Below, one piece after another: positions 6,408 to 20,872 of a stretch of DNA of 64,000 nt (position 1 is its first letter; every line of letters begins with the position of its first letter). The notes beneath the pieces were generated by a model, which was given only the letters and a program-made list of their open reading frames with translations, had not been told where the DNA came from and made no database searches. The translations under genes and the position numbers were made by a program. Origin of the DNA: Chloroflexota bacterium (GTDB lineage: Bacteria > Chloroflexota > Anaerolineae > UBA7937 > B3-Chlor); the NCBI GenBank assembly GCA_030613785.1, contig JAUWLF010000002.1:1-64000 (forward strand), given 5' to 3'.

Positions 6408-6831
6408 AGCACTACTGGGTACCAGCGCATGCTCGACCCCTCGCGGCTACATGCGCTTCCTAGGGATTATACAATCGCCACCGTCAGTAGACAACCACGA
6501 TGACAGGGTGAACGAACTCCTTGCTTTCGACGATGGGCGTCTCCTTCTCCAGTGGAACAGATCCACTGCGTGGCAGGCGCGCCTTCTGGTGAACACATCC
6601 AACGTGGCGTTCTGGCCGCGTCAGGTTTGGCCAAGCATGATTGCCTGGGGAGGTCTAGCATCTTCGCGTAACCTGGAGCTCGTAGCCTCTGCCGATGGGC
6701 GACTCTCACCGCTTTGGAATCCCAACGCAGGGTGCAACTGTCCCTTAACCCTCTGAAACGTGAACCTGGCCTCCTGCTGCGGCCTCTATCGACCGCCTGC
6801 ACACCTCTGTGGGATCAGTCCCATCTGGACC

Positions 6832-6861
6832 TTGACAGCCGCAGGCAAACGGTCGTACACT
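6832..6861 (+). promoter_or_regulatory. Sigma70-like promoter TTGACA-18-TACACT
   Basis: TTGACA 6832-6837; TACACT 6856-6861; ~70 nt before the S9 peptidase start. Confidence 0.5.
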
Positions 6862-6930
6862 GTACTGGCTGCGATGCGCGATGCACCCAGTACTGGAGCT
6901 ACAGGTCTTGCACACGAAAGGAGACGACTC

Positions 6931-8883
6931 ATGTCCGCAGCAAAGAAGGCCCCATTTGGCTCGTGGAAATCGCCCATTACGTCGGAACTCATTGCCACTA
7001 GAACCATCGGCACCCTCGAACCCTTCTTCGGCCTTGGGGAGATTGCACTCGATGGCGAAGACATCTATTGGCTGGAGATTCGCCCGGCTGAGGGGGGACG
7101 TCATGTGGTCGTTCGCTACGCAGCGGGCGGCCACAAGAGCGAGATGACGCCCCTCCCGTTCGACGCTGGCAACGGCGTCCACGAATACGGCGGGGGATCA
7201 TTCGCAGTTCGTGACGGCATAGTCTACTTCTCCAACTTCACGGACAATCTGGTCTACCGTCAAGATCCGGGGCGCCCTCCCAAGGCGATCACATCCAATG
7301 GGGACATGCGCTTTGCAGACTTTGCCATTGATGATACCAGGCGTCGGCTGATCTGCGTGCGCGAAGACCACAGCGTCGAGGGTCGGGAAGCAGTCAACAC
7401 CCTGGCCAGCATCAGCCTAGACGGCGACGACGTCGGTCAGGTTGTTGTCTCTGGGAACGATTTCTATTCTTCACCGCGCCTGAGCCCTGATAGCTCGCAA
7501 CTGTCATGGCTGACTTGGAGTCACCCCAACATGCCCTTCGACGGAAACGAGCTCTGGGTTGGTGAGTTGCTACCGGATGGCTCTGTCGGGGAGTCCCACC
7601 TTGTCGCAGGGGGCGCAGAAGAGTCTATCTTCCAGCCAGAATGGTCCACCGATGGGACTCTGTACTTCGTCTCGGATCGGAGTGACTGGTGGAACCTCTA
7701 TTGTTGGCAGAATGGTCAGACAGAAGTCTTGTGCGTAATGGAAGCTGAGTTTGGAGTCCCTCAGTGGGTCTTCGGCCTGTCCCTATATGCCTTCGAATCA
7801 CCCGACCGTATCGTCTGCGCCTACACACGAGAGGGCACCTGGCATCTAGGTAGCTTAGACACGAAGGGCTTCCACCTCGAACCTGTCGAGACGCCATACA
7901 CGGACATCTGGAGTGTGCGGGCGGCGCCCGGCCACGCTATCTTCGCGGCCGGTTCGCCCGCCGACCCAGCCTCCATCGTGCAGCTTGATCTGCGCGCCAA
8001 TGAGCTCGAAGTGCTGCATCGCTCCACCGATGTGAACGTGAATCCAGCGTACGTATCCTTTCCCGATGCCATCGAGTTCCCCACCGACCACGGATTGACG
8101 GCCCATGCCTTCTACTACCCACCGAAGAACCCTGACTACTCCGGCCCTGCGGACGAACTACCTCCTCTGTTGGTCATCAGCCATGGCGGGCCAACCTCTG
8201 CCACCTGGACAACGTTGCGTTTGGATATCCAGTACTGGACTAGTCGTGGCATCGCGGTGATCGACGTCAACTACGGGGGTAGCACTGGCTACGGGCGCGC
8301 GTTTCGAGAGCGACTGAAAGGTCAGTGGTGTATTGTGGATGTCGCCGATTGCACAAATGGCGCACTCCACCTCGTCAAGCAAGGCCTAGCGGACGGAGAC
8401 CGCCTGGGAATAAGGGGTGGCAGTGCAGGCGGCACGTGCACCCTGTGTGCACTTGCGTTCCATGATATCTTCGCCGCTGGCGCGAGCTACTATGGAGACA
8501 GCAACTTGGCGCTCTCGGAAGAGGAAACCCATAAGTTCGAGTCACGCTATTTCGACAGCATCATAGGACCCTACCCCGAGAGGCGAGACGTATACGATCA
8601 GCGCTCGCCGATCTACTCGGCGCATTGTATCAAGTCCCCTGTGATCTTCTTTCAAGGGCTGGAGGATGAGGTTGTGCGGCCCAACCAGACTGAACTAATG
8701 GTCCAGGCACTGCGCGACAATAAGGTTCCGGTGGCGTATATCCCGTTTGAGGGAGAGGGACACGGCTTCAAGCGCGCCGAGAACATCCAGTGCTCGCTCG
8801 ATGCTGAGCTGTACTTCTACTCGAAGGTGTTCAGTTTCGAACTTCTCGATCCTGTGAAGCCCATCACCATTGAGAATCTGTAA
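6931..8883 (+). CDS. S9 family peptidase (prolyl oligopeptidase/acylaminoacyl-peptidase-like), copy 1
   Basis: C-terminal alpha/beta-hydrolase with [30 protein letters not shown]-like region, IRGGSAGG nucleophile, [15 protein letters not shown]; start at ATG 6931 preceded by aaggaga. Confidence 0.9.
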   Translation: [650 protein letters not shown]

Positions 8884-8966: not shown

Positions 8967-10975
8967 ATGGATGTGATGCCCCGGGATTTGGATCGGCCAT
9001 GCATGGCCGAGACGGAGGAACCTGTGCTCAAGCTCGCTACAGCCCCATACGGATCCTGGAGGTCGCCGATAACCTCAGAGCTCATTGCAACCAAGACCAC
9101 AGGCGTCTTGGATACCTACATCGGGCTTGGTGAGATCGCTCTGGATGCCGAGGACGTGTACTGGTTCGAGCTCCGCCCAAGAGAGCAAGGGCGTCGTGTT
9201 ATCGTGCGAATGACCCCCGAAGAACATGCTGCCGATCAGACACCGGCGGAGTTCAGTGCGAGCACGCGCGTACATGAGATTGGCGGGGGTGCATTCGCAG
9301 TTCGCGAGGGTACAGTCTACTTCTCCAACGTCACCGACAACCTGGTCTACCGTCAAGACCCGGGCCGCCCTCCCAGAGCGATTACATCCGACAGTGGGTT
9401 GCGCTACGCGGACTTCGCCATTGATGATACCCGACATCGGCTGATCTGCGTGCGCGAAGACCACACCGTGGAGGGTCGCGAACCAATCAACACCCTGGTC
9501 AGCATCAGCCTCGATGCCGACGACGTCGGTCAGGTCCTTGTTTCTGGGAACGATTTCTACTCCTCACCACGCCTAAGCCCCGATAGCTCACAGCTGTCCT
9601 GGCTCACCTGGAGTCACCCCAACATGCCCTTCGACGGAAACGAACTCTGGGTCGGTGAGTTTCTGCCAGATGGCTCTGTGGGCAAGCGCCAGCTTGTCGC
9701 AGGGGGCGCAGATGAGTCCATCTTCCAGCCAGAATGGTCACCCGACGGGACCCCCTACTTCGTCTCGGATCGCAGTGGCTGGTGGAACCTCTATCGTTGG
9801 CGAAATGGTCAGACGCAAGCCTTGTGCGAAATGGAAGCCGAGTTTGGAGTCCCTCAATGGGTCTTCGGCCTATCCCTCTATGCCTTCGAGTCATCGGATC
9901 GCATCGTCTGCGCATACACACGAGACGGCAGCTGGCATCTAGCCAGCTTGGACACGAAGAGAGGCCATCTCGGACCTATCGAGACGCCATACACGGACAT
10001 TTGGAGTGTGCGGGCAGCGCCCGGCCGCGCCATCTTCGCCGCCGGCTCGCCCACCGAACCAGCCTCCATCGTGCAGCTTGACCTGGAGACCAATGAGCTC
10101 GAAGTACTCCACCGCTCCACCGATGTGTACGTCGATCCGGCGTACGTATCCCTTCCCCAGCCCCTCGAGTTCCCCACCGACCACGGATTGACGGCCCATG
10201 CCTTCTACTACCCACCCAAGAACCCTGACTACTCCGCCCCTGCCGACGAACTACCCCTTTTGTTGGTCATCAGCCACCAAGGGCCGACGGCCTCCACCTG
10301 GACGACACTGCGCCTGGATATCCAGTACTGGACGAGCCGTGGCTTCGCGGTGCTCGACGTCAACTACGGGGGTAGCACTGGCTACGGGCGCGCGTTTCGA
10401 GAGCGACTGAAAGGTCAGTGGTGCGTCCTTGATGTCGCCGACTGCGTCAACGGAGCTACGTACCTAGTTGATCGGGCTTGGTTGACTCCAACCATCTCGG
10501 TATCAGAGGGGCCAGTTCCGGCGGGACGTGTACGCTCTGGGCTCTTATCGGCTTCGACATCTTCAAGGTGGGTGCGAGCTACTATGGCGACAGCGATCTC
10601 GAGCTCTCGGCGGAGGAGACCCACAAACTGGAATCACGCTACATGGATGCCCTGATCGGACCCTATCCTCAACGGAAGGATCTCTACCGCGATCGTTCAC
10701 CAATCCATTTCGCCCACAAAGTCACCTCCCCAGTCATCTTCTTCCAAGGTCTTGACGACCTTGTGATAAGGCCCAACCAGACTGAACTGATGGTCCAGGC
10801 ACTGCGCGACAATAAGGTTCCGGTGGCGTATATCCCGTTTGAGGGAGAGGGACACGGCTTCAAGCGCGCCGAGAACATCCAGCGCTCGCTCGATGCTGAG
10901 CTGTACTTCTACTCCAGGGTGTTCGGCTTTGAGCTTTCCGACCCTGTGATGCCCGTCATTATCGAGAACCTCTAG
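8967..10975 (+). pseudogene. S9 family peptidase, tandem copy 2, with one -1 frameshift near 10474
   Basis: ORFs 8967..10655 (frame 3) and 10478..10975 (frame 2) together align end-to-end with copy 1; frame switches at cgggc (10473-10477), where one extra G restores LVDRGLVDSNHLGIRGASSGG. True start may be ATG 9003. Confidence 0.8.
8993..9010. repeat. 18-bp perfect palindrome TCGGCCATGCATGGCCGA
   Basis: Self-complementary; contains the alternative ATG at 9003. Confidence 0.7.
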
Positions 10976-12491: not shown

Positions 12492-14447
12492 ATGCCATTG
12501 GGATGGTCAGGCAAGATACTCAGAGTGGATCTGTCGGAAAACCGCTCCTGGACTGAGGATTCGATGCCTTACACGGGCTCATTCATTGGTGGAAGAGGCA
12601 TCAGCGTCAAGGCCATGTACGACGGAGTCGCTCCCACAACATTGGCCTTTGACGCAGAGAACCTGCTCTGTCTTGCCCCAGGAGTCCTAACGGGGACTCT
12701 TGCCCCCTCTACCGCTAGAATGAAGATCACATCCGTGGCTCCGAGCGGCTTGATTGCGAACTCTGGCATTGGTGGCTTCGCAGGAGCAGCGATCAGACGG
12801 GCCGGCTATGACTGCTTGATGATTGAAGGCGCTGCCGCAAAGCCGGTCTATCTCCATATCCAGAATGACAGCGTTGAGTTCAAGGATGCCGCCCAGCTGT
12901 GGGGCAAGGACACGCAGGAGACACAACGGCTGATAAGGGAAGAGATAGGCAACTCTGTGGAGATTGTGTGCATAGGGCCAGCCGGTGAGCATCTCGTGGT
13001 ATCTGCATGTGTCGTGACTGGCATGGGAAGCGTAGCCGGGCGCCACGGGTTAGGTGCCGTCATGGGATCTAAGAACCTCAAGGCTGTCTCGATCGGTGGA
13101 ACCCGGGAGGTTCGTGTCGCAGATCCAGCAGCTTTCGCCGCGGCCTGTGAGGAAGCGCACAGGTGGTTGAGAGAGCACCCCTGCATGCGGCCGGAGGCCC
13201 ACGAATATGGTGGGGACCGGCATTGGCTGGGCGATGCCCAGCAGATCGGCCAGTTTCCCATAGGGAACTGGGAAGCCGTGGATGCAGACTGGGATCAACT
13301 CGGCGGCTTCCAGAAGGCTTTCGAGGGAGAAGACCAATTCTGGAACGAGTATGCTACACACCAGTATGGGTGCTTGGGTTGTCCAGTGAACCATTTCCAT
13401 GTCTTCCATGTGCCAGGTGTTGGCAGCGGTACCACCAAGTGCTGGGGATGGGGCACGTTCGCCGGCAACGTGTGGAACAATGATCGGAGGCTGATGTTCC
13501 GTGCCAACTACCTGTGCAACCTCTATGGTCTGAACATCACTGCGGCGGGCGGCGCCATTTCTTTCCTGATGGAACTCTATCATCGAGGAATGATCGCCGA
13601 AGACGATACTGACGGCGTCCCCATGAGGAGAGGCGACGAAAGCGCTATTCTCTCCACGATTCACAAGATTGGGAAGCAAGAGGGCTTCGGCAAGCTCTTC
13701 AAGAATGGCGTATGGGGTGCGGCTCAGGAAATCGGCAAGGGTGCAGTGGAGTGCGCGATGGTGGTCAACGGGGAGGAAATGGAGCAGTGCGAAGTCAGAG
13801 CATTCAAGTCCATGGCTTTGATCGCAGCGATAGATAGCGGTGGCGTGGCCGAGGGGGTTGCCCTTGACTACAACTCTCTGTTCGGAGGTGTCGACCAACG
13901 AGAGTTGAAGAGATGGGCCAAAGCACTGTACGGATCGGAGACTGTCCCCGCCGCCACATCGTACCAGGGAAAGGCCATCTCGGTTTGGGATCACGAGAAC
14001 CTCTGCCGAGCAGTCGATATCGTGGGCACCTGCAGGTGGCTGATCCCATGGTCAATCACCACATCGCTAGAACTCCCGGCAAGACTGTTGTCCATGGCCA
14101 CAGGACAGGAATTCGGTGAAGATGACCTCTTGACAGCGGCGCAGAGAATCAAGACGCTGGAGAGAGCATTCAACGTCAAGCGAGGCATACTGCGCAAAGA
14201 CCACACACTTCCTCGCAGGCTCTTCCAGACTGCGGTTCCAGATGGGGTGCACAAAGGTCAGAGACTGGACAGGGAGAAGTTCGAACAGATGCTCAGCGAA
14301 TACTATGCGCTGCGCGGCTGGGACGAAGAAGGCGTGCCTACGGAGGAGACCTTCCGCAAGCTTGGCCTCTCTGCTGAGTGGGAGACCCTTGAGCGCGAGC
14401 TCGAACCAGCCGAGAGGTTCTCAGGGCAGGTGCCCACCGATGGCTAA
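12492..14447 (+). CDS. Aldehyde:ferredoxin oxidoreductase (AOR) family protein, copy 1
   Basis: GWSGKILRVDLSENRSWTE, FIGGRGISVKAMYD, APGVLTGT, GSKNLKAVSI, CLGCPVNH, DIVGTCRWLIP; tungstopterin oxidoreductase family pattern. Confidence 0.92.
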   Translation: MPLGWSGKILRVDLSENRSWTEDSMPYTGSFIGGRGISVKAMYDGVAPTTLAFDAENLLCLAPGVLTGTLAPSTARMKITSVAPSGLIANSGIGGFAGAAIRRAGYDCLMIEGAAAKPVYLHIQNDSVEFKDAAQLWGKDTQETQRLIREEIGNSVEIVCIGPAGEHLVVSACVVTGMGSVAGRHGLGAVMGSKNLKAVSIGGTREVRVADPAAFAAACEEAHRWLREHPCMRPEAHEYGGDRHWLGDAQQIGQFPIGNWEAVDADWDQLGGFQKAFEGEDQFWNEYATHQYGCLGCPVNHFHVFHVPGVGSGTTKCWGWGTFAGNVWNNDRRLMFRANYLCNLYGLNITAAGGAISFLMELYHRGMIAEDDTDGVPMRRGDESAILSTIHKIGKQEGFGKLFKNGVWGAAQEIGKGAVECAMVVNGEEMEQCEVRAFKSMALIAAIDSGGVAEGVALDYNSLFGGVDQRELKRWAKALYGSETVPAATSYQGKAISVWDHENLCRAVDIVGTCRWLIPWSITTSLELPARLLSMATGQEFGEDDLLTAAQRIKTLERAFNVKRGILRKDHTLPRRLFQTAVPDGVHKGQRLDREKFEQMLSEYYALRGWDEEGVPTEETFRKLGLSAEWETLERELEPAERFSGQVPTDG

Positions 14448-14964
14448 GCTGCTGTTTATCGACTATGAGAAGTGTGTGGGGTGCCGCACCTGTGAGATGG
14501 CCTGTTCGATCCAACACGAGGGGGCGATCAGTCCGAGCCAGAGCCGAATCTCCATCATCAAGTGGGAGATGGAGGGTGAGGCACTGCCCGTGACCTGTGC
14601 TCACTGCGAGTCTGCCCCCTGTGCGTCCATTTGCCCTGTAGGTGCGATCTCGCGTGATGAATCACTAGGAGCGGTCACCATCGACTATGAAAGGTGCATC
14701 GGTTGCAGGATGTGCATTGCTGTTTGCCCCTTCGGCGCGATGGCTTTCGACAACACACACAACCGAGTATTCAAGTGCGACCTATGCGACGGCGATCCCT
14801 TGTGCGTCAGGCTCTGTGTCTATGGAGCCCTGAGATACGCAGAGGTCGCCGAACACAGCAGCACGAATCAGAGGCGGGCTGCCGACAGGTTGAGGGGCGT
14901 GACGGCGGCACATCACGTCAAGCGGTGGACGTATGCCCACTGTGAGCCGACTGCGCGGGAATAG
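14440..14964 (+). CDS. 4Fe-4S polyferredoxin (HycB/DmsB-like), partner of AOR 1
   Basis: CVGCRTCEMAC, CAHCESAPCASICP, CIGCRMCIAVCP, CDLCDGDPLCVRLC; ATG 14440 overlaps AOR stop by 8 nt. Confidence 0.92.
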   Translation: MAKLLFIDYEKCVGCRTCEMACSIQHEGAISPSQSRISIIKWEMEGEALPVTCAHCESAPCASICPVGAISRDESLGAVTIDYERCIGCRMCIAVCPFGAMAFDNTHNRVFKCDLCDGDPLCVRLCVYGALRYAEVAEHSSTNQRRAADRLRGVTAAHHVKRWTYAHCEPTARE

Positions 14965-15121
14965 GGCACGCCCGCTTCGTCTACAAGTGCCCATGAGCGA
15001 ACCCGTGGTGAGAGGAGAAGGGCCCTGCTGAGTGGCAGGCTCGGGGGCAACTGGCACACAGGCTGGGGGTCCTTGTGTCAATAAGAGGGTCGGTGAGAGA
15101 TTCACAAGCTGGGAGAGAAAC

Positions 15122-17050
15122 ATGCCGTTCGGATGGTCTGGGCAGATCCTTAGGGTAGACCTGTCTCGCAGTGAATGGTGGACCGAGGACACGGAACCCT
15201 ACACCAAGTCATGGGTCGGCGGTAGGGGCATAGGCACCAAGATCTTGTTCGATGAGGTGGGCCGTGAAGTCCGTCCGTTTGATCCAGCGAACAGACTCTG
15301 CTTCGGACCTGGCGTTCTAAGCGGAACCCTGGCACCCTCTTCTTCACGGACGAAAGTGATGGCCATGTCCCCCAATGGCCTCATGGGTAGCGCTGGAATC
15401 GGAGGATCTCTAGGCGCCGCGATTCGCCATGCTGGCTATGACGGCGTCGTTGTCGAGGGAAGGTCTGGAGGACCGGCGTACTTGCACGTCCAAGACCAAT
15501 CGGTGGAGATCAGAGATGCCGAGCGCCTGTGGCACCAGGACACCCAGGAGACGGCTAGCCTCATACAGGAGGAGCTGAACGACCCCGTAGAGATTCTGTC
15601 CATAGGCCCGGCCGGTGAGAACCTGGTGAGCTTCGCATGTTTGATCACTGGAATGGGCAGTGCGGCAGGACGCTACGGATTGGGGGCCATCATGGGTTCG
15701 AAGAACCTGAAGGCCATCGCCATCAGGGGGACGGGTCAGATCAAGCTCGCCAAACCGGCGGAGTTCACCGCTGCGTGCGAACAGACGCAGAAATGGCTGC
15801 GAGAGCATCCGGGTATGCGCCGCGAGGCAGCGGGCGGCGTGGGCGATATGTACACTCTGGGCTCGGATCTCAACGAGGATCCCCTCGGCAACTGGGAAGC
15901 GGACGATGCCAGCTGGGAAGAGGTGGGCTCCTTCGGTCCTCCAGAGGAGTTCTACGAGCGCTTTGCCGTTCGGCAGTACGGCTGTTTTGGGTGCCCTTTG
16001 AATCACTTCCACACATTCCATGTTCCCGGGATTGGACATGGTGTGACAAAGTGCAACGGTTGGGGGTCGTTTGCCAGCAATGTGTGGAACAATGACCGCA
16101 AGGTGATGTTTCACGCTACCTATCTCTGCAACGCCTATGGGCTGGACATCACAGCCACGGGGAATATCATCTCCTTCCTGATGGAGCTCTATCACAGAGG
16201 CATCATAACTGCACAAGACACAGATGGCATCGCCATGGAGAGAGGCGACGAGACGGCCATCTTGTCCTCAATCCACAAGATAGGGAGGCAAGAAGGCTTC
16301 GGGAAGCTCTTCAAGAACGGGGTGCGTGCCGCAGCCCACGAAATGGGCAGCGAAGCCGAGGAATGTGCCATGGTGGTGAAGGGTGTGGAGATGGAGCAGT
16401 ATGATGTGCGGGCATACAAATCGATGGCGCTTGCTGCGGCTGTGAACGCAGGAAACCAGGCAGAGGGAGGAGCCGCCGACTATGCCTTGTGGAGCGACCA
16501 GGATGGTGTGGCCCGTTGGGCTGAGGAGCAGTACGGCTCAAGCCAGGTGCTAGATCCCACGTCTTACGAGAAGAAGGCTCCAATGGTCGTGGACTACGAG
16601 GATCGGAGCATCGCCGTGGATTTGCTGGGGATGTGCCAATGGCTTATCCCCTGGGCGATTACGCGCTCGCTAGAGGTACCTGCGAAGCTCTTCTCCCTAG
16701 CCACTGGACAGAATACCGCAGAGGCCGAGCTGCTCCTTGCGGCCCGGAGGGTGAAGACCCTAGAGAGGGCGTTCAACGCCGTAAGAGGCATAAGGAGAAC
16801 GGACGACAGTTTTCCAAGACGCCTCTTTGAGACGGCTGTGCCAGGCGGGCGGTTCGAAGGTGAGCGACTAGACGCGACAAAGTTCCAGCGAATGCTCAGC
16901 GAGTACTATTCGCTCCGTGGGTGGGATGAGGAGGGAGTCCCAAAAGAAGAGACCTTCCATAGCCTAGACCTCTCGTCAGAATGGGAAACGTTCAAGCGCC
17001 AACTTGAGCAGAATGAGTACTCTTCAGAGCAGGTACCAAGCGATGCCTAA
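15122..17050 (+). CDS. Aldehyde:ferredoxin oxidoreductase family protein, copy 2
   Basis: MPFGWSGQILRVDLSRSEWWTEDTEPY..., GGRGIGTKILFDEV, GSKNLKAIAI, CFGCPLNH, DLLGMCQWLIP; close paralog of copy 1. Confidence 0.92.
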   Translation: MPFGWSGQILRVDLSRSEWWTEDTEPYTKSWVGGRGIGTKILFDEVGREVRPFDPANRLCFGPGVLSGTLAPSSSRTKVMAMSPNGLMGSAGIGGSLGAAIRHAGYDGVVVEGRSGGPAYLHVQDQSVEIRDAERLWHQDTQETASLIQEELNDPVEILSIGPAGENLVSFACLITGMGSAAGRYGLGAIMGSKNLKAIAIRGTGQIKLAKPAEFTAACEQTQKWLREHPGMRREAAGGVGDMYTLGSDLNEDPLGNWEADDASWEEVGSFGPPEEFYERFAVRQYGCFGCPLNHFHTFHVPGIGHGVTKCNGWGSFASNVWNNDRKVMFHATYLCNAYGLDITATGNIISFLMELYHRGIITAQDTDGIAMERGDETAILSSIHKIGRQEGFGKLFKNGVRAAAHEMGSEAEECAMVVKGVEMEQYDVRAYKSMALAAAVNAGNQAEGGAADYALWSDQDGVARWAEEQYGSSQVLDPTSYEKKAPMVVDYEDRSIAVDLLGMCQWLIPWAITRSLEVPAKLFSLATGQNTAEAELLLAARRVKTLERAFNAVRGIRRTDDSFPRRLFETAVPGGRFEGERLDATKFQRMLSEYYSLRGWDEEGVPKEETFHSLDLSSEWETFKRQLEQNEYSSEQVPSDA

Positions 17051-17546
17051 ACAGCTAGTCATCGACTATGAGAAGTGTGTTGGCTGCCGGACTTGTGAGA
17101 TGGCTTGCTCCATCCAACACGAGAAAGCAATCAGTCCGAGTCAAAGTCGAATCTCCATCGTGAAATGGGACATGGAGGGTCAAGGAATACCTATCACCTG
17201 CGCTCAGTGCGAGTCTGCCCCCTGTGCATCCATTTGCCCTGTAGGTGCGATCTCGCGTGATCAATCACTACGAACGGTCACCATCGACTACGAAAGGTGC
17301 ATCGGTTGCAGGATGTGTATCGCTGTTTGCCCCTTCGGCGCGATGGCTTTCGACAACACACACAACCGAGTATTCAAGTGCGACCTATGCGACGGCGATC
17401 CCTTGTGCGTCAGGTTCTGTGTTTATGGAGCCCTGAGATACGCAGAGGTCGCCGAACACCGCGGGACAAAGCAAAGGCGGGCTGCTGAGAAACTCAGGGA
17501 GGTAGTGTCTACAAAGCGTCCTGGCCTACTGTCCGGTGCGAGCTAG
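17043..17546 (+). CDS. 4Fe-4S polyferredoxin, partner of AOR 2
   Basis: MPKQLVIDYEKCVGCRTCEMACSIQHEKAIS...; same Cys motifs as 14440..14964; overlaps AOR 2 stop. Confidence 0.92.
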   Translation: MPKQLVIDYEKCVGCRTCEMACSIQHEKAISPSQSRISIVKWDMEGQGIPITCAQCESAPCASICPVGAISRDQSLRTVTIDYERCIGCRMCIAVCPFGAMAFDNTHNRVFKCDLCDGDPLCVRFCVYGALRYAEVAEHRGTKQRRAAEKLREVVSTKRPGLLSGAS

Positions 17547-18471: not shown

Positions 18472-18921
18472 ATGAGTACTAGCCTTAGCGTCGAAGCAGA
18501 GAAATGCACCGCATGCAGGGCGTGTGAACTGGCCTGCTCGTTCGTGCACGAGGGGGTCTATGCACCCGAGCTGTCACGCGTAGGCATAGTCCGTCTGATG
18601 GATCGAGGTGTGAATGTCCCTATCGTCTGTGCGAACTAGGCCTGCCATGCCTGTGTACAGGCCTGTCCCTCACAGGCAGCCCACCTTGACCGAACGGTGC
18701 CCGTCGTGCGGGGGATCGATGAGGAAACGTGTACCGACTGCGGAGAGTGCGTCACGGCCTGTCCGCTAGGCGCTGCGAATGTGCATTACGAGAAGGGCAT
18801 AGCCATCATCTGCGACCGCTGCGACGGCGAGCTTGCATGTGTGACGAATTGTATCCAAGGAGCGCTGAAGTTTGTCCCAACTCGGGACGTTGCGCAGCAC
18901 AAGCGTAGAGTCACCGCTTAG
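18472..18921 (+). pseudogene. 4Fe-4S polyferredoxin, partner of AOR 3, with in-frame TAG at 18637-18639
   Basis: Translation from ATG 18472: MSTSLSVEAEKCTACRACELACSFVHEG...VNVPIVCAN*ACHACVQACPSQAAHLDRTV...CTDCGECVTACPLGAANVHYEKGIAIICDRCDGELACVTNCIQGALKF; same frame on both sides of the amber codon. Confidence 0.8.
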
Positions 18922-18961: not shown

Positions 18962-20872
18962 ATGATCAGGGATCTTAGCGAGCAGCGAATACTCCATGTG
19001 GAATTGACCTCCCGAGAGACGAGCGTCGAAGAGGTTCGCGGCGATGACCTGCTCAGCTTCCTGGGCGGCAGAGGCATTGCCGCCAAGCTGTTGTACGAAC
19101 GGCTTGCGCCAGGCACAGACCCGCTGAGTTCCGGAAACGTGCTCATCTTTAGCACAGGGTCGTTGACCGGCACTAGTGCGCCTTCCTCCGGTCGTAGCTG
19201 TGTAACGTGCAAAGGGCCTGCTACGAATCTCTACCTCAAGGTGAGCGCGGGTGGGCATCTGGGTGCCGAGTTGAAATACGCTGGCTATGACTACGTCGCG
19301 ATCAGCGGCATGGCTGAGCACCCCGTCTACCTGTGGATCGACGATGGTGAAGTGGCAATCCGTGATGCCCGGCATCTCTGGGGACTCGGTACCCGGGAGA
19401 CAGATCACCTCATCAAGGAGGAACTGGGCGACCAGGAGATTCAGACTGGGCTCATTGGACCGGCAGGCGAGAACGGCGTGCTATTCGCCTCTATCACCTT
19501 CTCCGTCTTCAGTTCAGCCAGCCGGGGAGGCGTCGGGGCAGTGATGGGGTCGAAGAACCTCAAAGCTATCGCTGTGCGGGGCAGGGGAGGCTTACGGAGT
19601 TGCGAGGGAGACGAGTTCTTCGACTTGGCGGCCTGCATGCGGAGGGAACTGGGTCAGGACACCACCTCGGAGAGACTATACAGATGGGGCACCGCCGGCG
19701 ACGTAGCCCCGGCCAATGAGATGGATGAACTGGCGTCGTACAACTTTGGCCGGATTGGCATTGAAGGGGCGGAGAGGATCGGCGGCCAGTATCTTGAAGA
19801 GCAAGGCTATCTCATCGGGCGCCTGTCCTGCTTCTCTTGTTCCACCGCCTGCCACCGCTACGTCCGCACCAAAGAGCATCGATACGGGCTGGTTCAGGAT
19901 GCGGGGCCGGAATACGAAAGCGTGTGTGCCTTGGGTGCGCAGTGCGGCACTGTAGACACGGAGGGCGTGATTAAGGCCAACCAGTTGTGCAACGACTATG
20001 GGTTGGACACGATCTCTACAGGCCATGTCATCTCGTGGGCCATGGAGTGCCAGGAAAGGGGGTTGCTTGAGGAGAAGCTAGCCGATGGCCTCGATTTGCG
20101 GTTCGGCAATGTAGAGAGCGAACTGGAGTTGATCCGACGGATAGCTCTGCGACAGAAAGGGCTAGGTGATTTGCTGGCCAACGGCTCCCGTCAGGCCGCC
20201 CACGCGGTAGGTGTCGACTCGTGGAAATGGGCTGTCCAAGCCAAGGGTTTGGAGCAATCAGCCATAGACACGCGGATGGCCAAAGGATATGCCTTGGCCT
20301 TCGCTGTGAATCCCAGAGGTCCAGACCATCTGATGACCGAGTGCCTTGCTGAGTTTGGAGCCACGGACGAGGCCCGGGCCTTGGTCAGGGAGATCACCGG
20401 AGATGAGAAATGGGCCGATGCTACTCTCGTCGACAAGAGGGCGGAAATCGTGCGCTGGCACGAGGATTGCTACGCAGCGAGCGACGCCCTGGGATTCTGT
20501 GCCTTCAGTACGACCGCGGCCTATGGCGTTCATCCCAAGACCATGGCTCAGCTACTCGGTCATGCCTTCGGCCTCAGGTTCAGCGAAGACGAGTTGATGA
20601 CCGCTGGGCGACGCATCGTGACCTTAGAGAGATGCTTCAACGTGCGCGAGGGCGCCCGTCGTGAGCATGACAAGCTACCCTGGCGCATGATGAACGAGCC
20701 TGTACCCTCAGGTCGTTTACAGGGCCTTGTGACCGACCACGCAACACTGGATGGCATGCTGGACGAGTATTACGAGCTGCATGGTTGGGACGTGGACACT
20801 GGAATACCCAAAGCCGAGACATTGGAGGTCTTGAGCCTCCTCGCGCTTTGTCGAGAATGTGTCGCAGGCTGA
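18962..20872 (+). CDS. Aldehyde:ferredoxin oxidoreductase family protein, copy 3 (divergent)
   Basis: LSFLGGRGIAAKLLYERLAPG, FSTGSLTGTSAPSSGR, GSKNLKAIAV, CFSCSTAC, DALGFCAFS. Confidence 0.92.
   Translation: MIRDLSEQRILHVELTSRETSVEEVRGDDLLSFLGGRGIAAKLLYERLAPGTDPLSSGNVLIFSTGSLTGTSAPSSGRSCVTCKGPATNLYLKVSAGGHLGAELKYAGYDYVAISGMAEHPVYLWIDDGEVAIRDARHLWGLGTRETDHLIKEELGDQEIQTGLIGPAGENGVLFASITFSVFSSASRGGVGAVMGSKNLKAIAVRGRGGLRSCEGDEFFDLAACMRRELGQDTTSERLYRWGTAGDVAPANEMDELASYNFGRIGIEGAERIGGQYLEEQGYLIGRLSCFSCSTACHRYVRTKEHRYGLVQDAGPEYESVCALGAQCGTVDTEGVIKANQLCNDYGLDTISTGHVISWAMECQERGLLEEKLADGLDLRFGNVESELELIRRIALRQKGLGDLLANGSRQAAHAVGVDSWKWAVQAKGLEQSAIDTRMAKGYALAFAVNPRGPDHLMTECLAEFGATDEARALVREITGDEKWADATLVDKRAEIVRWHEDCYAASDALGFCAFSTTAAYGVHPKTMAQLLGHAFGLRFSEDELMTAGRRIVTLERCFNVREGARREHDKLPWRMMNEPVPSGRLQGLVTDHATLDGMLDEYYELHGWDVDTGIPKAETLEVLSLLALCRECVAG

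Follow-up and report, generated by a model that had tools for sequence, protein, structure and literature searches.

Two paralogous AOR-family proteins with histidine at the third cluster-ligand position and a putative cysteine ligand to the metal

The 64,000-nt stretch of Chloroflexota DNA analysed here (referred to as the window) contains three genes of the AOR/WOR family, AOR1, AOR2 and AOR3, together with genes encoding WorS-type ferredoxins (Table 1). AOR1 and AOR2 match both domains of the family above the Pfam cut-offs, with E-values for AFOR_N and AFOR_C of 1.9e-64 and 5.2e-82 (AOR1) and of 1.8e-67 and 3.6e-85 (AOR2). They are not the only such proteins in the source genome, which carries 17 genes with an AFOR_N domain. 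AOR3 is an ordinary member of the family and serves as an internal control.

Table 1. Genes and sites of the AOR locus, in positions of the window
Feature	Position	Strand	Description
AOR1	12492..14447	+	Catalytic subunit, AOR/WOR family, 651 aa; AFOR_N and AFOR_C domains
AOR1 C294-x2-C297-x3-H301	13371..13394	+	Third [4Fe-4S] cysteine replaced by histidine
AOR1 Cys317 (TTKC)	13440..13442	+	Aligned to BamB Cys322 and YdhV Cys336; GPEYE motif replaced
AOR1 Glu454	13851..13853	+	Occupies the position of PfAOR His448
AOR1 Cys514 (VGTC)	14031..14033	+	Distal cluster cysteine; column invariant in 146 AORs
WorS-type ferredoxin 1	14440..14964	+	Four 4-Cys motifs; start overlaps the AOR1 stop by 8 nt
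AOR2	15122..17050	+	Paralog of AOR1, 61% identical, 642 aa
AOR2 C288-x2-C291-x3-H295	15983..16006	+	
AOR2 Cys311 (VTKC)	16052..16054	+	Putative metal ligand
AOR2 Glu448	16463..16465	+	Occupies the position of PfAOR His448
AOR2 Cys505 (LGMC)	16634..16636	+	Distal cluster cysteine
WorS-type ferredoxin 2	17043..17546	+	Four 4-Cys motifs; start overlaps the AOR2 stop by 8 nt
AOR3	18962..20872	+	Ordinary AOR with CFSCSTAC, GPEYE and the histidine retained

AOR1 and AOR2 are each directly followed by their own ferredoxin gene, the product of which contains 16 cluster-type cysteines. A paired arrangement of WorL and WorS genes has been termed Class II (PMC13328260), and both pairs show its features: the neighboring gene encodes a small subunit with four [4Fe-4S] motifs, and an FAD subunit is absent. 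Upstream of the two pairs lies a gene for a GntR/FCD regulator, and downstream of them lie genes for an FMN reductase, AOR3 and a family-5 solute-binding protein of a peptide-type ABC transporter.

Several further irregularities are found in the neighborhood. The two ferredoxin genes (14440-14964 and 17043-17546) are ~92-100% identical over approximately ORF positions 150-420. Identity between the AOR genes next to them is just 70%, and the pattern looks like gene conversion. Another ferredoxin gene, upstream of AOR3 (18472-18921), contains an in-frame TAG (codon 18637-18639) at the second cysteine of one cluster motif (VCAN*ACHAC), where a paralogous ferredoxin beside L011 reads VCVNCARPAC; this may represent a pseudogene, recoding or an error. 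Finally, a peptidase-like gene (6760-8883) has a tandem second copy (8967-10655 plus 10478-10975) that is apparently broken by a frameshift near 10480.

The classical ligand set of the [4Fe-4S] cluster consists of a CxxCxxxC motif and a distal cysteine. AOR1 and AOR2 retain three of these four cysteines and have a histidine at the third position. A first-pass annotation had read CLGCPVNH in AOR1 and CFGCPLNH in AOR2, next to the classical CFSCSTAC in AOR3 (19829-19852), and had noted a distal cysteine in all three proteins (the AOR3 one lies in LGFC, C513); all of these readings and their coordinates are exact. The histidine falls in the column of P. furiosus AOR (PfAOR) Cys295, BamB Cys306 and YdhV Cys314 without gaps, both in phmmer alignments against 1AOR, 9MQX and BamB (4Z3W) and in hhalign profile-profile alignments against BamB, YdhV and AOR profiles. 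Another cysteine as ligand 3, which had been named as an outcome that would overturn the observation, is thereby rejected. The column was also inspected in an alignment of 146 AORs, composed of the three from the window, other loci of the genome, matches from phylum genomes, plasmid AORs, YdhV, BamB relatives and two solved AORs. In this sample, which consists mostly of best matches to AOR1 and thus does not cover the family evenly, the third ligand is cysteine in 143 sequences and histidine in three (AOR1, AOR2 and a third protein, L102), the first is cysteine in 144, and the second and distal ones are cysteine in all 146. Structure predictions from one and from three sequences (a shallow alignment) were too poor to use, with pLDDT values of 33 and 36.

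Histidine is a known cluster ligand, and its presence at this position is not restricted to AOR1 and AOR2. The third protein, L102 (72-2042, minus strand), reads CEGCPIPHHR and falls in another clade of AORs, one of the ordinary type. It is 46-47% identical to its neighbors, which have CKR (~46% to the CKRVV AORs), and its active-site Glu and His are intact. A homolog from another genome (L172, 68% identical to L102) reads CQGCPVPHDR. Because this clade is separate from AOR1 and AOR2, the change from cysteine to histidine at ligand 3 has taken place at least twice independently, and the two swaps argue for histidine acting as a genuine ligand. A Cys3His site in AOR1 and AOR2 is plausible, and the second clade adds to its case. 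All that the motifs of the two clades have in common is the histidine at ligand position 3; His303 and His306, neither of which is shared with L102 and L172, were rejected as conserved ligands.

Ligand variation is also seen elsewhere in the family. Two sister proteins on a deep branch (L029 and L033) have Tyr or Phe instead of the first cluster cysteine and retain the other three. In P. furiosus WOR4, where glycine has taken the place of one cluster cysteine, the EPR signal is consistent with Fe3S4 and aldehyde activity is absent (PMC12096430). With these proteins and L102 departing from it, the AOR/WOR ligand set is less fixed than usually stated. A histidine-ligated cluster in this family was not mentioned in the literature searched.

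Of the 195 four-fold degenerate sites shared by AOR1 and AOR2, 138 have diverged, which is near saturation. Their motif codons (TGC TTG GGT TGT CCA GTG AAC CAT in AOR1; TGT TTT GGG TGC CCT TTG AAT CAC in AOR2) have been altered at nearly every third base, yet the protein motif is retained. From this near-saturation alongside a nearly unchanged motif it follows that the duplication is old and that both copies are under selection to retain the histidine. The persistence of the motif in old paralogs, in combination with the independent second histidine clade, makes it more likely that the histidine would be a real fourth cluster ligand than that the motif is decaying.

The suggestion that the pair marks a distinct subfamily is supported by its deep, isolated stem and by its distance from other AORs: the nearest ones in 300 phylum and 199 class genomes do not exceed ~37% identity over the full length and show 36-39% in the motif region. 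The third-position histidine itself is shared with L102 and L172. The longer pattern CxxCxxNHFH matched no AORs in 396 class genomes other than AOR1 and AOR2, i.e. none in the 395 other genomes. Matches in six of those genomes were dismissed as chance: in two the motif is interrupted by a stop codon, and the remaining four lie in short non-AOR frames. Two short peptide patterns searched against a genome-contig set of 84,980 species retrieved a single relative, 27% identical and with the classical cysteine motif. No close relatives were obtained from the motif-region scan of this set or from a plasmid search, and none was found among viral contigs. The lineage so far comprises two sequences from one genome, but as the scans used exact peptides or samples, it may be more common than they suggest.

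Besides the cluster, the active site differs from that of ordinary AORs. In PfAOR, Thr243, Glu313, Tyr427 and His448 form a proposed second-shell proton relay for aldehyde oxidation (PMC12096430). The corresponding residues are Asp, Cys or Trp, Cys and Glu in AOR1, and Val, Cys or Asn, Tyr and Glu in AOR2. The GPEYE motif containing Glu313 is replaced by TTKC in AOR1 and VTKC in AOR2. By phmmer, the cysteine of this motif (Cys317 in AOR1, Cys311 in AOR2) aligns to BamB Cys322 with an equal spacing of 16 residues from ligand 3, in a reconstructed BamB numbering that agrees with the published residues 251, 255, 257, 260 and 322. Profile-profile alignment places it on BamB Cys322, YdhV Cys336 and PfAOR Glu313. 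In larger multiple alignments it falls one column off, on PfAOR Tyr312, or the BamB cysteine is misplaced; the shift arises because AOR1 and AOR2 have one extra residue ahead of the next anchor. According to a 2025 review, BamB Cys322 and YdhV Cys336 are protein ligands of the metal, which all other AOR/WOR members lack, and both clades are without the AOR second shell (PMC12096430). A cluster cysteine exchanged for histidine and a cysteine at the BamB/YdhV metal-ligand position together indicate that AOR1 and AOR2 probably have a function other than the usual aldehyde oxidation.

Relationships to BamB and YdhV are less clear-cut. In a tree with the loop columns left out, a long stem (0.81) leads to AOR1 and AOR2, which lie close to YdhV and BamB. 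A grouping of all three is present and weak (support 77/52), and the join between YdhV and BamB is flagged as a meeting of long branches. Placement with the best-scoring neighbors (L028, L059 and L060) is disfavored (AU p 0.034), and placement with BamB alone is not rejected (p 0.28). Raw profile scores put AOR1 and AOR2 closer to ordinary AORs than to BamB or YdhV. Membership of BamB itself was rejected: AOR1 and AOR2 fall outside its clade and lack Glu251, His255, Glu257 and His260, the proton/Zn-site region reading GNWEAVDADW in AOR1. Genuine BamB proteins, 73-83% identical to that of G. metallireducens, are encoded in three phylum genomes (L063, L064 and L065). The best NCBIfam match of AOR1 and AOR2 is the YdhV equivalog model (NF007354), at 258.5 and 256.5 bits against a cut-off of 868 bits; AOR3 scores 228 bits. 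No YdhV relatives above this threshold were found in 201 phylum genomes, in a search run without a positive control.

With moderate confidence, we infer from these comparisons that AOR1 and AOR2 form a new AOR/WOR lineage, so far of two members, in which three cysteines and a histidine hold the cluster and a cysteine binds the W (or Mo), and that they are probably not aldehyde oxidases. Each would be the catalytic subunit of one of two paralogous W (or Mo) oxidoreductases of Class II type (L+S), in which the [4Fe-4S] cluster beside the pterin cofactor would be held by three cysteines and His301 (AOR1) or His295 (AOR2), and the metal would additionally be ligated by Cys317 or Cys311 in a BamB/YdhV-like manner. 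Inner-sphere aldehyde hydration and hydride chemistry appear unlikely, because Glu313 and His448 are gone and a thiolate would occupy the metal. Outer-sphere proton-coupled electron transfer or other non-aldehyde chemistry would be the likelier reaction, with the Cys3His cluster relaying electrons between each enzyme's own polyferredoxin and the Cys-ligated bis-pterin center. More tentatively, and as a possibility rather than an expectation, the pair may represent a third thiolate-on-metal AOR/WOR lineage, the first with a histidine-ligated cluster, catalyzing an undescribed non-aldehyde low-potential reduction or oxidation.

Several alternatives can be weighed against this reading. The third ligand could simply have been lost, leaving AOR1 and AOR2 with a [3Fe-4S] or labile cluster. 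WOR4, with its glycine, Fe3S4-like EPR and lack of aldehyde activity, offers a precedent for this, and the absence of the first cysteine in L029 and L033 demonstrates that the family does lose ligands. Random loss should, however, give varied residues, while the replacement at ligand 3 is histidine in every member seen of two independent clades, making this explanation fairly unlikely. Decaying genes or sequence error would bring the change down to damage, of which there are signs nearby in the stop in the AOR3 ferredoxin and the broken peptidase-like gene. This is highly improbable, as both ORFs are intact, have diverged separately, keep their motifs and show synonymous change close to saturation. 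A pseudogene status of AOR1 and AOR2 was rejected.

Other alternatives concern the active site. AOR1 and AOR2 might still be aldehyde oxidoreductases, with Cys317 a second-shell substitution off the metal and the histidine a neutral ligand swap. Taken as a whole, their sequences most resemble those of ordinary AORs, L102 combines histidine at ligand 3 with an intact Glu and His, and the cysteine alignment is ambiguous by one residue. The loss of Glu313, His448 and Thr243 (and of Tyr427 in AOR1), all part of the proposed proton relay (PMC12096430), speaks against aldehyde oxidation, which we consider unlikely. A divergent YdhV-like Mo-bis-MPT protein would account for the YdhV model being the best NCBIfam match (258 bits, compared with 228 for AOR3) and for the shared CxWxxP motif and metal cysteine. 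Such an assignment is improbable given a score far under the cut-off and 26% identity; moreover, the neighboring genes show no ydhWXUT-like partners, and the third cysteine is present in the YdhV sequences compared.

If the preferred reading of a Cys3His cluster next to a Cys-ligated metal is correct, AOR1 and AOR2 look like a further metal-Cys lineage beyond BamB and YdhV. They also separate two variables, as histidine occurs with an ordinary active site in L102 and L172 and with a Cys-type active site in AOR1 and AOR2, so that the role of cluster ligation becomes directly testable. More generally, they advise caution against labeling every AFOR match, of which this genome has 17, an aldehyde oxidoreductase.

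Compared with known systems, AOR1 and AOR2 share with P. furiosus AOR (1AOR) and its relatives the domain structure, the pterin-binding core and three of the four cluster cysteines, and differ in the replacement of Cys295, Glu313 and His448. With BamB they have in common the AOR fold family, a cysteine aligned to Cys322, the absence of the AOR second-shell residues and a polyferredoxin partner, although the BamC partner has three clusters instead of four. Unlike AOR1 and AOR2, BamB retains Cys306 as third ligand and possesses Glu251, His255, Glu257 and His260; genes for a Bam complex are absent from the examined part of the window. E. coli YdhV likewise has an aligned cysteine (Cys336), CxW[LV]xP after the distal cysteine, no AOR second shell and a ferredoxin-like partner, but retains Cys314, has long insertions and is 26% identical. 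P. furiosus WOR4, compared by its description in the literature, similarly has one cluster cysteine replaced, by glycine. The CPxPH AORs L102 and L172 show the same ligand-3 swap within an ordinary AOR active site and another clade. Outside the family, the distal cluster of [FeFe]-hydrogenase CaI, a protein unrelated to AOR1 and AOR2, is a Cys3His [4Fe-4S] cluster in an electron relay and the best-studied example of histidine in place of cysteine. Exchanging its histidine for cysteine lowers the potential by only ~65 mV and mainly alters electron-transfer rates and low-pH stability (PMC9019909), and for this reason a large potential shift should not be assumed for AOR1 and AOR2, for which the first-pass annotation had suggested a shifted potential or lability.
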